Of a DNA stretch of 34,513 nucleotides, positions 8,835-26,758 are shown in pieces. The translations under genes were made by a program, and so were the position numbers. Source of the DNA: Oscillospiraceae bacterium (lineage in GTDB: Bacteria; Bacillota; Clostridia; Oscillospirales; Acutalibacteraceae); NCBI GenBank assembly GCA_029012165.1, contig JAQXLO010000075.1, positions 1 to 34,513 of the forward strand. The letters are read 5' to 3'. Positions within the stretch are counted from its first letter, which is position 1. Each line of letters opens with the position of its first letter. The notes under the pieces were generated by a model, which made no database searches, was not told where the DNA came from, and worked only from the letters and a program-made list of their open reading frames with translations.

Positions 8835-9534
8835 GGGAAAAAAACGCGTGGAGGAAGCGTGGAAAGCTGTCTGCCACGATGTGCAGGAAGCGGCACTCAA
8901 AAGCGGTCGTGACCCGTCGGAGGTCTCCCTCATGGCGGTGACGAAAACGGTGGAGCCGGTGTATATCAACCACGCCATTTCCCTGGGCGCAGCGCTGATC
9001 GGCGAAAACAAGGTGCAGGAATTTCTTGGCAAAAAGCCGGAGCTGCAAGGCGCCTATACCGCCCATCTGATCGGGCATTTGCAGACCAACAAGGTGCGCC
9101 AGATCGTCGGGGAGGTGGCCATGATCCAGTCCGTGGACAGCGTGAAGCTGGCACGGGAGATCGGCCGATGCAGTGAAAAAAAGGGCATCGTGAGCGATAT
9201 TTTGCTGGAAGTGAACATCGGCAGGGACCCGGATAAGTTCGGCATTTTGCCCGAGGCGGCGGAGGAAACAGCGTGTGAAATCGCCGAAATTCCGGGCGTA
9301 CACATCTGCGGAATGATGACGGTACCGCCTTTTGATGCGGATTTGGAAAAAACACGCCGATTTTTTTCAAATATGCATCAACTGTTTATTGACATTGGGT
9401 CGAAAAACATACATAATATAAATATGTGTACCCTTTCGATGGGGATGTCCGGGGATTTCCGGGAAGCCATCGCAGAGGGAGCGACGCTTGTGCGTGTGGG
9501 ATCGGCGATCTTCGGCGCACGCAACTACCGCTGA
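8809..9534 (+). CDS. YggS family PLP-homeostasis protein
   Basis: LMAVTKTVEP, GENKVQEFLGKKPEL, HLIGHLQTNKVRQI, LSMGMSGDFREAIAEGATLVRVGSAIFGAR; ATG at 8809 overlaps the upstream CDS. Confidence 0.95.
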   Translation: MQEQSFIAEGKKRVEEAWKAVCHDVQEAALKSGRDPSEVSLMAVTKTVEPVYINHAISLGAALIGENKVQEFLGKKPELQGAYTAHLIGHLQTNKVRQIVGEVAMIQSVDSVKLAREIGRCSEKKGIVSDILLEVNIGRDPDKFGILPEAAEETACEIAEIPGVHICGMMTVPPFDADLEKTRRFFSNMHQLFIDIGSKNIHNINMCTLSMGMSGDFREAIAEGATLVRVGSAIFGARNYR

Positions 9535-9593
9535 CCGGGGCACGATTCCCCTGTCACAGAAACATCACAAACGATTTTCAGGAGGATAAACTT

Positions 9594-16635: not shown

Positions 16636-17676
16636 ATGCCCCTGTCGGAATTTCTGACGCAAGTTTTGCAGAACCCCGCCCTGCTGATCACATCCCTGCT
16701 GACGCTGGGGGTGATCTTTGTCAACGGCTGGACGGACGCACCCAACGCCATCGCCACTTGCGTGTCCACACGGTGTATGCCGGTGCGTGCGGCGGTGCTG
16801 ATGGCGGCGGTGTTCAACCTGCTGGGCGTTTTGATTATGACCTCCGTCAGTGCCGAGGTGGCGCAGACGATCTACAACATCGCCGACTTCGGCGGGGATT
16901 CGCACCGGGCGCTGATCGCCCTGTGCGCCGCCATGACGGCCATCGTGCTGTGGGCAACGGCGGCGTGGTATTTCGGCATTCCCACCAGCGAGAGCCATGC
17001 GCTGATCGCCGGCGTTTCCGGTGCGGCCATCGCCCTGAACGGCGGCTTCGGCGGCATCAACGGTTCGGAGTGGATCAAGGTCATTTACGGTTTGGGACTG
17101 TCCACCGTGCTGGGCTTTGTGTCCGGCTTCGTGATCGTCAAAACGGTTGCCCTGCTGTTTCGCAATGTTCGCAGGAGCAGGACGCAGGGCTTTTTCCGCG
17201 GGGCGCAGATCTTCGGCGGCGCCGCCATGGCGTTTATGCACGGTGCGCAGGACGGGCAGAAATTTATCGGCATCTTCCTTTTGGGAATCTCCCTGACGGG
17301 TGTCGGAACGGAAAGCTTTTCCGTCCCGCTGTGGCTGATGCTTTTGTGTGCCGCAGTTATGGGTGTGGGCACCTCCGTCGGCGGGTATAAGATCATCAAG
17401 TCCGTGGGCATGGATATGGTAAAGTTGGAAAAGTACGAGGGCTTTTCCGCCGATCTGGCAGGGGCGTTTTGCCTGCTGCTGTCCACCGTGACGGGGCTTC
17501 CCGTCAGCACGACCCATACCAAGACCACCGCCATCATGGGCGTGGGTGCGGCAAAGCGCATTCGGGGGGTCAACTGGAGCGTGGTCAAGGATATGATGCT
17601 CGCATGGGTGCTGACGTTCCCGGGGTGCGGGCTGGTCGGATATCTGGTTGCACGGCTGTTTATCTATATTTTTTAA
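16636..17676 (+). CDS. PiT family inorganic phosphate transporter
   Basis: NGWTDAPNAIATCVSTR, IPTSESHALIAGVSGAA, AAMAFMHGAQDGQKFIGI, GLPVSTTHTKTTAIMGVGAAK. Confidence 0.93.
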   Translation: MPLSEFLTQVLQNPALLITSLLTLGVIFVNGWTDAPNAIATCVSTRCMPVRAAVLMAAVFNLLGVLIMTSVSAEVAQTIYNIADFGGDSHRALIALCAAMTAIVLWATAAWYFGIPTSESHALIAGVSGAAIALNGGFGGINGSEWIKVIYGLGLSTVLGFVSGFVIVKTVALLFRNVRRSRTQGFFRGAQIFGGAAMAFMHGAQDGQKFIGIFLLGISLTGVGTESFSVPLWLMLLCAAVMGVGTSVGGYKIIKSVGMDMVKLEKYEGFSADLAGAFCLLLSTVTGLPVSTTHTKTTAIMGVGAAKRIRGVNWSVVKDMMLAWVLTFPGCGLVGYLVARLFIYIF

Positions 17677-17680
17677 CGCA

Positions 17681-17906
17681 TTCTTCACGGAAAATTGTGG
17701 GATTTGTGCCGATCACCGGGGAAGCCCCGGCGAGGGTTCCCCACGCCAAAACAGTCCACCGGACTGTTTTGGCTCCCCTCCTGCGCTTTTGGTGTTGTTA
17801 GGATTTCGCCGACTGCGGTCGGCGACCAAAGGCGCCGCCTTTGGAATCTGCAAGCCTTTAAAAAGGCGTGAGCGAAACTTTTCATCCCCAAACTTTCCGT
17901 GATGAA
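17681..17906. repeat. Hairpin-rich repeat family, copy 1 (inverted TTC-TCACGGAAA-type ends)
   Basis: Ends ttcttcacggaaaattgtggg / ccccaaactttccgtgatgaa are inverted; interior stems ccaaaacagtcc-acc-ggactgttttgg, gccgac-tgcg-gtcggc, ccaaaggcg...cctttgg; matches 33709-34131 in reverse orientation. Confidence 0.85.
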
Positions 17907-17911
17907 GCAAT

Positions 17912-17946
17912 AAAGAGCAGGACAGCCGCACCGTCCTGCTCTTTTT
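17912..17946. terminator. Bidirectional-looking intrinsic terminator, shared with the small-ORF copy B locus
   Basis: gagcaggac agccgcacc gtcctgctc ttttt; near-identical hairpin at 26571-26604. Confidence 0.8.
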
Positions 17947-17963
17947 GCTTTGACTGTGTAAAC

Positions 17964-18086
17964 GCTTTTCACGAAAAATGGATACGCTTCCCTGATGCTT
18001 GAATTTCCCGCCTTTGGAATTCGCAAGCCCTTTAGCATGGCTTGAACGCAACTTGGAGTCCCACAAAAAACGTGACGCAGCTTAAT
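17964..18086. repeat. Degenerate copy of the hairpin repeat, inserted between the small-ORF A stop codon and its terminator
   Basis: Minus strand TCACGTTTTTTGTGGGAC...TTCAAGCC...GGGCTTGCGAATTCCAAAGGCGG matches the left part of 33742-33813; absent from copy B, where the stop codon runs directly into GTTTACACA. Confidence 0.65.
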
Positions 18087-18182
18087 TTATGCGACTTTTT
18101 CCTGTTCGCTGCCGAGAAAGGCCATGACAAGACCTGCGCCGCAGAGTACCGGAACCGTAAGAACACCAATCAGTAACATCAT
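18087..18182 (-). CDS. 31-aa single-TM peptide, copy A: MMLLIGVLTVPVLCGAGLVMAFLGSEQEKVA
   Basis: Complete ATG-to-TAA small ORF with RBS agagggg; paralogous to 26456-26551 in the same frame with conservative or synonymous changes; below the ORF-track length cutoff. Confidence 0.75.
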   Translation of the reverse strand: MMLLIGVLTVPVLCGAGLVMAFLGSEQEKVA

Positions 18183-18228
18183 TTGTATAACCCCTCTTTG
18201 CTTCAAATTTGTTTTGGTTTATGTTTCT

Positions 18229-18284
18229 ATTATAACGAAACAAATATTAAGAAACAATCGGGGAAATCCTTAAATAATCCTTAA
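18229..18284 (-). promoter_or_regulatory. Promoter and tandem-repeat operator for small ORF A
   Basis: Minus strand: TTAAGGA-N4-TTAAGGA (18284-18267), TTGTTT (18257-18252), N17, TATAAT (18234-18229); nearly identical to the copy B upstream region. Confidence 0.8.
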
Positions 18285-18341
18285 GACTGCACTGCGAATT
18301 GTGCGTTGCTGCCTGCATGTCACCATACTCCGCAGCAGCAA

Positions 18342-23078: not shown

Positions 23079-23117
23079 GATGATTATTTGTGTAATTATC
23101 TTTCGAGAGGTGTAATT

Positions 23118-23582
23118 ATGAAAAAGATCGTAACCTTCATCCTTGCTTTAGCGATCGTATTCTGCGGCGTTGCCGCTGTCAACGTGTCCGTGGCCGCCAA
23201 GGACAGCCCCAGCGCACCCACGATCACCAGACCCACCGGCGAAACCGATCCCACTACGGTTCCGTCTTCCCCCCATGTAACGGGAACCAATCCGACCGGC
23301 ACTTCGCCCTCCGGCAGCACCCCCGGCGGCAGTACCCCCGGCGGCAGCACGACCGGTCCCGACGGCAGCAAACCCACGTCGCCCTCTGTCACCGCTGCGA
23401 CGACCAAGCCGATCACCACGCCGGACGGCTCCACCGTCACCGGCACCGTAAAGCCTGACGACAAGCCCACTGCACCCGAAACCGGTGACACCAGCGCAGA
23501 GGTTTTCGTGTTCGCAGGCGCCGCATTGGCTTGCACGGCTGCGGCGATCCTTCTGCGGAAAAACAAGGCAGACGAACAGTAA
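23118..23582 (+). CDS. Ser/Thr/Gly/Pro-rich cell-wall-anchored protein with PETGD sorting signal
   Basis: Signal peptide MKKIVTFILALAIVFCGVAAVNVSVAA; low-complexity S/T/G/P stalk; APETGDTS + TM + RKNKADEQ; sortase gene follows. Confidence 0.82.
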   Translation: MKKIVTFILALAIVFCGVAAVNVSVAAKDSPSAPTITRPTGETDPTTVPSSPHVTGTNPTGTSPSGSTPGGSTPGGSTTGPDGSKPTSPSVTAATTKPITTPDGSTVTGTVKPDDKPTAPETGDTSAEVFVFAGAALACTAAAILLRKNKADEQ

Positions 23583-23611
23583 CCGTTGCATACAGCATCC
23601 TGATGCGCACG

Positions 23612-23655
23612 AACCTGCAGCCGCATTTTATATGCCGAGGCAGGTTCTTTTTTTC
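23612..23655 (+). terminator. Intrinsic terminator between surface protein and sortase genes
   Basis: gaacctgc ... gcaggttc followed by T7. Confidence 0.8.
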
Positions 23656-23672
23656 TCTGAAGGAGGGGTTTC

Positions 23673-24440
23673 ATGCGCTCTGAAAAAAAAGGCGGCTTCC
23701 AAAAGCGCTGGCTGTGGATTTTGCTTCTTCTGCTGCTTTTAAGCGGCGCTGTCTTTTTCGGTGTGCGGCTGTACCGTGACTATCTGGCACGCCGGGAGTA
23801 TACGCACATCTCCGAGGACTACACGGTGGAGACCACCGCCGATGACCGTGTGGAAAATCCCATTGATTTCGCCGCACTGCAAACACGCAATTCGGAAATT
23901 TACGCCTGGCTGATCGTGCCGAACACAGACATTGAGCTGCCGATCCTCCAAAGCAGGGCGGACGACCTGTACTATCTGAACAGGGACATCGACGGCAAAT
24001 ATTCCCGCTTAGGCTCCCTGTTCACCCAGTCCAAAAACAGTCTCGACTTTTACGACCCGGTCACGGTGATCTACGGGCACAACTACTACTCCGGCGGGAT
24101 GTTCACCAATCTGCACTATTTTGAGGATGAAACCTTTTTTAAAGAAAACGAATACTTCTATATCTACACGCCGGATCGCAAGCTGACCTATTCCATCGTT
24201 TCGGCGTACAAGTACGATGACCGCCATATTTTAAATTCCTTTGATTTCAGCAACCCTGATGTTATACGGGAATATTTTGACTATGTTCTCGATCCGCTTT
24301 CCATGCTGCGCAATGTTCGTGAAGGTGCACGGCTGGAGATTACGGACAAGCTGGTCGTTCTGAGTACCTGCCTGACGGGCGGCTACAAGGGACGGTATCT
24401 TGTAAATGGAGTATTGATAAACGATGAGCCAACCAAATGA
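23673..24440 (+). CDS. Class B sortase
   Basis: N-terminal TM; NSEIYAWLIVPNTDIELPILQ, YGHNYYSGGMFTNLHYF, VVLSTCLTGGYKGRYLVNGVLI (catalytic Cys context). Confidence 0.88.
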   Translation: MRSEKKGGFQKRWLWILLLLLLLSGAVFFGVRLYRDYLARREYTHISEDYTVETTADDRVENPIDFAALQTRNSEIYAWLIVPNTDIELPILQSRADDLYYLNRDIDGKYSRLGSLFTQSKNSLDFYDPVTVIYGHNYYSGGMFTNLHYFEDETFFKENEYFYIYTPDRKLTYSIVSAYKYDDRHILNSFDFSNPDVIREYFDYVLDPLSMLRNVREGARLEITDKLVVLSTCLTGGYKGRYLVNGVLINDEPTK

Positions 24441-25763: not shown

Positions 25764-26351
25764 ATGCAATCGGATTTTATGTTTTTTCTCAACAGCGTGC
25801 TTTTCGGCGTGGGACTTGCCATGGACGCCTTTTCCGTTTCCATGGCCAACGGACTGAACGAGCCGCAGATGAAAAAGAGCCGTATGTGTCTGATCGCAGG
25901 GGTGTTCTGCGGGTTTCAGATCCTGATGCCCCTGGTCGGCTGGATCTGCGTGCATACGGTGGCGAATGTGTTTGCCTCCTTCCAGAAGTTTATTCCGTGG
26001 ATCGCGCTGGCGCTGCTGCTGTATATCGGCGGAAAAATGCTCCTGGAGGGACTGCGAAAAAAGCAGGAGAACGGGGAAAAGGCGGCGGTCGGCTTCGGCG
26101 CACTGCTGGTGCAGGGCGTGGCAACCTCCATTGACGCCCTGTCTGTGGGCTTCACGATCAGCGAGTATACATGGCAGGCGGCGCTGATCGAGGCGCTGAT
26201 TATCGGTGCGGTGACATTCGTCCTCTGCCTTGCGGGGCTTTGGATCGGCAGGCGCTTCGGCACCAAGCTGGCGGGAAAAGCGTCCATCCTCGGCGGCGTG
26301 ATTTTGATCGCCATCGGTTTGGAAATATGCATTACCGGCCTTTTGAAGTGA
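25764..26351 (+). CDS. mntP: Manganese efflux pump MntP
   Basis: GVGLAMDAFSVSMANGL, GWICVHTVANVF, GVATSIDALSVGFTISEY. Confidence 0.93.
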   Translation: MQSDFMFFLNSVLFGVGLAMDAFSVSMANGLNEPQMKKSRMCLIAGVFCGFQILMPLVGWICVHTVANVFASFQKFIPWIALALLLYIGGKMLLEGLRKKQENGEKAAVGFGALLVQGVATSIDALSVGFTISEYTWQAALIEALIIGAVTFVLCLAGLWIGRRFGTKLAGKASILGGVILIAIGLEICITGLLK

Positions 26352-26353
26352 CC

Positions 26354-26409
26354 TTAAGGAATTTTTAAGGATTTCCCCGATTGTTTCTTAATATTTGTTT
26401 CGTTATAAT
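26354..26409 (+). promoter_or_regulatory. Tandem-repeat operator and sigma-A promoter for small ORF B
   Basis: TTAAGGA (26354-26360), N4, TTAAGGA (26365-26371); TTGTTT (26381-26386), N17, TATAAT (26404-26409). Confidence 0.8.
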
Positions 26410-26455
26410 AAAGACATAAACCAAAACAAATTTGAAACGAAGAGGGGTTATACAA

Positions 26456-26551
26456 ATGACATTACTGATTGGTGTACTTGCGGTTCCGGCACTCTGCGGC
26501 GCAGGCCTTGTTATGGCCTTTCTCGGCAGTGAACAGGAAAAAATTGCATAA
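26456..26551 (+). CDS. 31-aa single-TM peptide, copy B: MTLLIGVLAVPALCGAGLVMAFLGSEQEKIA
   Basis: Small ORF with RBS agagggg, own promoter and terminator; paralogue of 18087-18182. Confidence 0.78.
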   Translation: MTLLIGVLAVPALCGAGLVMAFLGSEQEKIA

Positions 26552-26570
26552 GTTTACACACTAAAGTAAA

Positions 26571-26604
26571 AGAGCAGGACGGCGCAGGCTGTCCTGCTCT
26601 TTTT
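26571..26604 (+). terminator. Intrinsic terminator of small ORF B
   Basis: agagcaggac ggcgcaggct gtcctgctct tttt. Confidence 0.85.
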
Positions 26605-26720
26605 GGAAAGCGCTCCCGTGCAAATTCTCTGACAAAGGGCGAAGCCCGCCGACAGTTGCGGATCTGTCGGCAGGCTTCTGCATGCAGTTTATGGAGAGAA
26701 AGAAAGACGATGGCAATATT

Positions 26721-26758
26721 AAGGCAACACCGCACGATCAGGGTGTGCGAATTGCTTT
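26721..26758. repeat. Short imperfect palindrome resembling the fused ends of the 33849-34010 MITE
   Basis: aaggcaacaccgcacgatc ... gtgtgcgaattgcttt compared with gggcaataccgcacaattg / caattgtgcggtattgccc. Confidence 0.4.

Follow-up and report, generated by a model that had tools for sequence, protein, structure and literature searches.

Small membrane proteins that have been described as acting on the sensor kinases of two-component systems (TCSs) are mainly enterobacterial. MgrB, SafA, and UgtS are small membrane proteins that bind PhoQ (PMC10576120), and through MgrB the TCS by which it is induced comes under feedback (PMC7808668). Random hydrophobic peptides are likewise able to bind and activate the kinase PmrB (PMC7790251). 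PmrR, a membrane peptide that is driven by a PmrA box and encoded beside pmrAB, inhibits the enzyme LpxT (PMC8129183). In the VanR/VanS system, the response regulator also upregulates its own vanRS genes (PMC8541618). Here, we describe a peptide family from Clostridia that shares features with several of these systems.

The window, i.e., the whole stretch of 34,513 nucleotides that was analyzed, is contig C75 of an Oscillospiraceae genome (G000; 2.3 Mb, 81% complete, 275 contigs). The genomes used for comparison are mostly incomplete metagenome-assembled genomes (MAGs) of one genus, and the relatives with named records are mostly rumen or gut Ruminococcaceae/Clostridia MAGs. Two copies of a 31-aa peptide gene are found in the window, inverted relative to each other and ~8.3 kb apart. 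Copy A starts with ATG, reads MMLLIGVLTVPVLCGAGLVMAFLGSEQEKVA followed by a stop codon, and has AAAGAGGGG 8 nt 5' of its start codon. The features of the two copies are as follows:

18269..18285, minus strand: copy A operator CTTAAG-GATTA-TTTAAG, a YTTAAK-N5-YTTAAK direct repeat; the same box also precedes the response regulator gene, both in the source genome and in members of three further genera
18247..18257, minus strand: copy A -35 region with a third half-site, TTGTTTCTTAA, at equal spacing in most promoters of this type in the genus
18229..18234, minus strand: copy A -10 element TATAAT, 51 nt past the box start, from promoter comparison
18191..18196, minus strand: copy A ribosome-binding site GAGGGG, from the sequence
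18087..18182, minus strand: copy A gene for the 31-aa peptide with a single predicted transmembrane (TM) segment (maximal 19-residue hydropathy 2.36)
17912..17946, minus strand: copy A terminator-like hairpin AAAAAGAGCAGGACGG..GTCCTGCTCTTT; the same hairpin lies directly behind copy B
26353..26369, plus strand: copy B operator CTTAAG-GAATT-TTTAAG, from promoter comparison
26381..26391, plus strand: copy B -35 region with the third half-site TTGTTTCTTAA, from promoter comparison
26404..26409, plus strand: copy B -10 element TATAAT, from promoter comparison
26442..26447, plus strand: copy B ribosome-binding site GAGGGG, from the sequence
26456..26551, plus strand: copy B gene for the 31-aa single-TM peptide (MTLLIGVLAVPALCGAGLVMAFLGSEQEKIA), from codon comparison and the conservation test
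26568..26604, plus strand: copy B intrinsic terminator AAAAGAGCAGGACGG..GTCCTGCTCTTTTT, from the sequence

The initial annotation had counted eight differing codons between the copies, four of them silent (V7, G17, V19, and S25) and four changing a residue (M2T, T9A, V12A, and V30I), with zero indels, and this tally is exact; at the nucleotide level, 10 of the 93 coding positions differ. Over the 103 nt that precede the ORF, identity is 94% (six differences), and the similarity stops sharply at the CTTAAG box. A GC-rich terminator hairpin is also common to both copies, in copy A shifted by ~115 extra bp from the stop codon. Since the upstream part, the ORF, and the terminator hairpin are all shared, the repeated element is, as read from its sequence, a complete transcription unit comprising box, -35, -10, ribosome-binding site, ORF, and terminator. 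A degenerate pattern of the peptide's C terminus matched copies A and B only in the window and had 0 matches in 100 shuffles.

Several repeats were observed around these units. At window positions 17950-18086 and 17840-17870, ~115 bp are inserted between the copy A stop codon and terminator, and the short related repeats AAAGGGCTTGCGAATTCCAAAGGCGG / AAAGGCTTGCAGATTCCAAAGGCGG close by resemble small repeat elements. Furthermore, a AAGGCAACACCG(C/T)AC repeat is located behind copy B (26718-26750) and right at the stop codon of a third copy (L015, 106-130) and is possibly a dispersed repeat.

This third copy, C (contig C114, positions 13-108), encodes a protein with 97% identity, and its upstream region is lost at the contig edge. 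Copy D, on contig C131, is a divergent paralogue (MVEALIACVLILPAFTGVGLAIYHMKKENVPKQARKKKGRKT) behind a promoter of the same type. It was found with a profile of eight family members at E=0.04, and at this position the independent profile match and the promoter match coincide. The copy D locus (L098, 4110-2890, minus strand) has its own box promoter and a secreted protein gene on its 3' side, and a second box promoter on C131 (about 2797) drives another secreted protein. A mobile element was considered as carrier of the copies and rejected: no transposase is apparent among the neighboring ORFs, and the sequence common to the units stops with the operator.

A link to metal or phosphate transport had earlier been suggested from the neighbors of the two copies in the window. 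The PiT gene (16636-17676, plus strand) and copy A are convergently oriented, whereas mntP (25764-26351) terminates 1 nt ahead of the copy B box. The proposed link is nevertheless rejected because the neighborhoods of the copies are unrelated: promoter and terminator are part of the unit itself, copies C and D are found at unrelated sites, the copies of relatives adjoin a TCS, and the conserved upstream part corresponds to the putative operator of that TCS. Elsewhere in the window, the ORF at 23088-24440 encodes a surface-like protein that is rich in Pro and Thr and has a hydrophobic stretch at its C terminus, and the gene after it carries a sortase-like TLxTC-type motif.

The search for homologues began with a weak match within the genus (44% identity, E 0.6), which was later seen to share the promoter. 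Homologues are present in three other genomes of the genus, namely G005 (MMTMFISGIVFVPALLGIGLAMFGGNAETKAA), G006 (MMTMLISGVIFAPALLGIGLAMFGTQKAKRA), and G009 (three copies), and the frame is retained in all three genomes. A profile search returned eight members in four species with E values of 1e-14 to 1e-17, all eight having been used to build the model. The family members are 29-42 aa long and have a core of roughly L-I-S-G-[VI]-[LI]-F-x-P-A-[LF]-L-G-x-G-L-A-M, which is followed by a polar tail that differs between species. The maximal 19-residue hydropathy is 2.2-2.5 in every member, predicting a single TM segment.

The initial annotation regarded the pair as a maintained duplicated small-protein gene and no chance ORF, and cautioned that eight codon changes are too few for a formal test. 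Both views are borne out. Among six diverged members, the pairwise differences at codon positions 1/2/3 are 104/52/177, and in 15/15 diverged cross-pairs the translation is more conservative than with randomly placed changes (p 0.001-0.016; the pairs are non-independent). For the near-identical copies, the same test gave a weak signal (A-C, p=0.005; A-B, 0.02; B-C, 0.10). The codon pattern thus points to a real coding gene family, which we hold to be almost certain.

This bears on the idea that the units produce a regulatory RNA in which the ORF is incidental, comparable with the csRNAs of the CiaR regulon, which includes a number of similar small units with TTTAAG-N5-TTTAAG repeats. Although the operator type is identical and the small units are likewise multicopy, the frame and the protein sequence are conserved across species and the UTRs have diverged. 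Conservation is thus found beyond promoter and UTR, as the ORF is kept where the 5' UTR diverges. Moreover, a ribosome-binding site is present in the copies, and in G006 the ORF stands 3 nt ahead of the response regulator gene. A purely regulatory RNA is therefore the least probable of the alternatives weighed here; a dual-function RNA, both coding and regulatory, is possible. An Rfam scan of the window gave no match.

The core also invites comparison with membrane-active peptides. A P-x3-G hydrophobic core is the motif of Fst/Ldr type I toxins, and it is present in copies A, B, C, and D, in the G005 and G006 peptides, and in two of the three G009 peptides (G009a and G009b; absent from G009c). 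As the peptides are also short, hydrophobic, and multicopy, they might be type I toxins or secreted antimicrobial or PSM-like peptides. We consider this improbable, since a consensus scan showed no conserved antisense promoter (matches in 2/9 units, at differing places), Trp is absent, the tail charge is -3 to 0 in most members with +3 and +8 in two, and a promoter under response regulator control next to a TCS is unusual for a type I layout. Searches of Pfam, NCBIfam, and PHROGs, which yielded zero significant matches for any member scanned, speak against it as well.

Wider searches delimit the family further. GTDB contigs and IMG/VR viral contigs, queried with three copies from the source genome, gave zero matches, and a single-sequence family search returned the own genome only. 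Profile matches outside the genus lie mostly within long ORFs; those in G145, G238, and G292 were read individually and rejected, as they have neither this promoter nor a matching small gene. With narrow queries and profiles, the family was thus not found outside the genus, and it is a previously unnamed peptide family of an uncultured rumen Clostridia genus.

Copies A and B share the YTTAAK-N5-YTTAAK box with the peptide genes that adjoin the TCS in G005, G006, and G009 and with the response regulator gene of the source genome; no clear box stands before the third G009 copy. In the peptide promoters, the -10 element begins 51 nt from the start of the box (50 in the C131 copy), and the -35 region is usually TTGTTTCTTAA or a close variant. 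This composite promoter pattern has 28 matches in 11 genomes of the genus, compared with 1 for the reversed control. In G006, the box precedes the operon of peptide and response regulator. In a genome-wide pattern search across the family, the counts of most genomes are at about control level (judged by eye and unsummed). Among the exceptions, which were picked by eye for the third element, G034, G163, and G190, from three other genera, have the box directly before orthologues of the response regulator (..NILICDDEKDI..), so that the operator most likely belongs to this response regulator family. The shared operator, the frame-keeping homologues, and the adjacency to a TCS together suggest that the single-TM peptides form a multicopy family controlled by a response regulator, and it is very probably this regulator that governs the peptide units.

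Other targets of the promoter within the genus include further small single-TM peptides (38 and 40 aa in G004, 51 aa in G008, and 41 aa in G007) as well as a PEP-utilizer-like and a UbiA-like protein, both named by resemblance only. In G237, the operator is located before a small soluble protein of 86-87 aa and before secreted proteins. In three more distant MAGs (histidine kinase identity 43-44%), the gene behind the operator next to the TCS is that of a small soluble protein; because this protein is unrelated to the peptide, the peptide appears inessential to the circuit. In neighboring genera, the small protein driven by the operator belongs to an uncharacterized soluble family of 75-87 aa (..KLVYLGSGAL..SYGGASIYVSKVRDLVSDADCLVIAFDR..). 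The loci of this family and of a secreted family are:

L172, L173 6068 (plus strand), L176 3204 (minus strand), L207, and L209: soluble 75-87 aa family; three MAG loci adjoin the same TCS
Contig C261 of the source genome (L014) 9004-9537, minus strand, with L149 and L164: secreted family of ~180 aa (ASISSNKHTATGIIGGQTVYIKSNTGWNTE..), found in three genomes of the genus downstream of a promoter of this type

The TCS consists of an OmpR-type response regulator and a HisKA-type histidine kinase of ~660 aa, in which several TM segments are predicted. The gene order is peptide-regulator-kinase in G005 and in G006, with 3 nt from the peptide stop to the regulator start in the latter, and peptide-regulator-kinase-peptide in G009, where the peptide flanks the TCS on both sides. 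In the G009 species, a tandem array of three very short hydrophobic ORFs (MELIITAVIAAAAAVVVALIATR twice and MTLIVVTSILAAAAVTIAAIACR), ~117 bp apart and with ribosome-binding sites, lies upstream of the TCS region (L166, 16-320, plus strand). In the source genome, the TCS is located on contig C151, its kinase is 69% identical to that of G009, and no peptide copy is seen in cis up to the contig end, ~330 bp past the kinase gene. The four peptide-bearing genomes are exactly those with a kinase ~70% identical to that of G009, and four genomes with 45-48% kinases have no clear peptide homologue; this co-occurrence over eight genomes could be plain phylogeny. G004, of the 45-48% group, has a 38-aa peptide with P-x3-G behind the same promoter (L153), which could be a very divergent family member.

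VanR and VanS are among the best NCBIfam models for the two proteins (NF033117/NF033091), with scores that fall well short of the curated cut-offs: 244.6 for the regulator (cut-off 350) and 151.1 for the kinase (cut-off 400). Against the PmrA/BasR model, the regulator scores 129.5 (cut-off 330). Apart from the ATPase domain and an alpha/beta stretch at 50-160, the AlphaFold model of the kinase is weak (pLDDT 62.6), and a PDB fold search with it returned chiefly kinase cores.

A gene that adjoins a kinase with several predicted TM segments, and whose product combines a conserved core with a species-variable tail, might encode a pheromone of the TCS, i.e., an exported or cleaved peptide whose C-terminal tail is the signal. 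No processing or transport partner is seen alongside, however, nor is there a leader or GG motif in the peptide, and the kinase is HisKA/VanS-like, unlike an Agr-type kinase, which makes a pheromone very improbable.

The promoter putatively recognized by the response regulator and the adjacency to the TCS in relatives suggest that the peptide most likely tunes the sensor or acts for it. In the proposed mechanism, the stimulated kinase would lead to a phosphorylated response regulator that occupies both the CTTAAG-N5-YTTAAG repeat and the third half-site, switching on the individual peptide units through their strong sigma-A-type promoters as well as its own operon. The peptide would then insert in the membrane, as predicted from hydropathy only, and most likely bind the TM segments of the kinase, adjusting its activity in a feedback like that of MgrB, SafA, and UgtS on PhoQ. 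We infer the activation by the regulator, the membrane insertion, and the action on the kinase together with the sign of its effect, and it is the kinase step that sets the overall strength of the reading. With the PhoQ-binding proteins and the PmrB-activating random peptides as precedents, we tentatively propose that the peptide is a feedback regulator of a VanRS-like sensor kinase, at somewhat below an even chance.

The main rival is an effector role resembling that of PmrR, in which the TCS-induced TM peptide inhibits or activates a membrane protein other than the kinase (a transporter, or an enzyme acting on cell wall or lipids) or alters the membrane itself. Besides the precedent of PmrR, the dispersed extra copies resemble a dosage of output, each unit has a strong stand-alone promoter and a terminator, and the rest of the regulon consists of secreted and membrane proteins. 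The copies of the source genome, dispersed and with none seen linked to the TCS, count against kinase feedback and fit an effector equally. Action on the kinase is favored because of the operon coupling with the response regulator (G006), the position beside or around the TCS (G005 and G009), and the co-occurrence with one kinase clade, and we regard the effector role as unlikely, though serious.

If feedback on the kinase is correct, the family may represent an MgrB-like principle in Clostridia: a self-induced peptide would set a VanRS-like kinase, its copies would spread together with promoter and terminator over a number of sites on the chromosome, the strength of feedback would evolve by copy number, and the slot would be filled by unrelated TM peptides in sister species. 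This generalization is more doubtful than the feedback itself. Because the operator of the family is defined, its partner TCS is named, and its genes occur at several dispersed sites, the choice between feedback and effector role is directly testable. Furthermore, the promoter signature (YTTAAK-N5-YTTAAK, TTGTTTCTTAA, and TATAAT at 50-51 nt) locates more small proteins of the regulon.

Compared with the described systems, the peptide resembles MgrB, SafA, and UgtS in its size of at most 65 aa and its membrane location (PMC10576120), predicted in the present case. It differs in that no sequence relation was found, the hosts are Clostridia, the genes are multicopy and coupled to the response regulator in one species, and kinase binding is putative. 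VanR/VanS (PMC8541618) are closest among the NCBIfam models; the kinase described here is longer, with extra N-terminal TM segments, and both proteins stay well below the curated cut-offs. PmrR is likewise a tiny membrane peptide under a PmrA-box promoter, and its gene adjoins and overlaps pmrB (PMC8129183). The response regulator described here, by contrast, lies far below the cut-off of the PmrA model (129.5 vs 330). The PmrA box, YTTAAK-N5-YTTAAK, is matched by the box found here, and lipid A and LpxT are not generally expected in these hosts. Finally, the streptococcal CiaRH regulon combines an NTTAAG-N5-TTTAAG direct repeat with several small stand-alone units (PMC3091779, PMC8186281), as is the case here, where the repeat is present upstream of the promoter as CTTAAGGATTATTTAAG and CTTAAGGAATTTTTAAG. 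Whereas the csRNAs of that regulon are non-coding, the units described here encode a conserved peptide, and their promoter has the extra TTGTTTCTTAA element and a distance of 50-51 nt from the box start to the -10 element.
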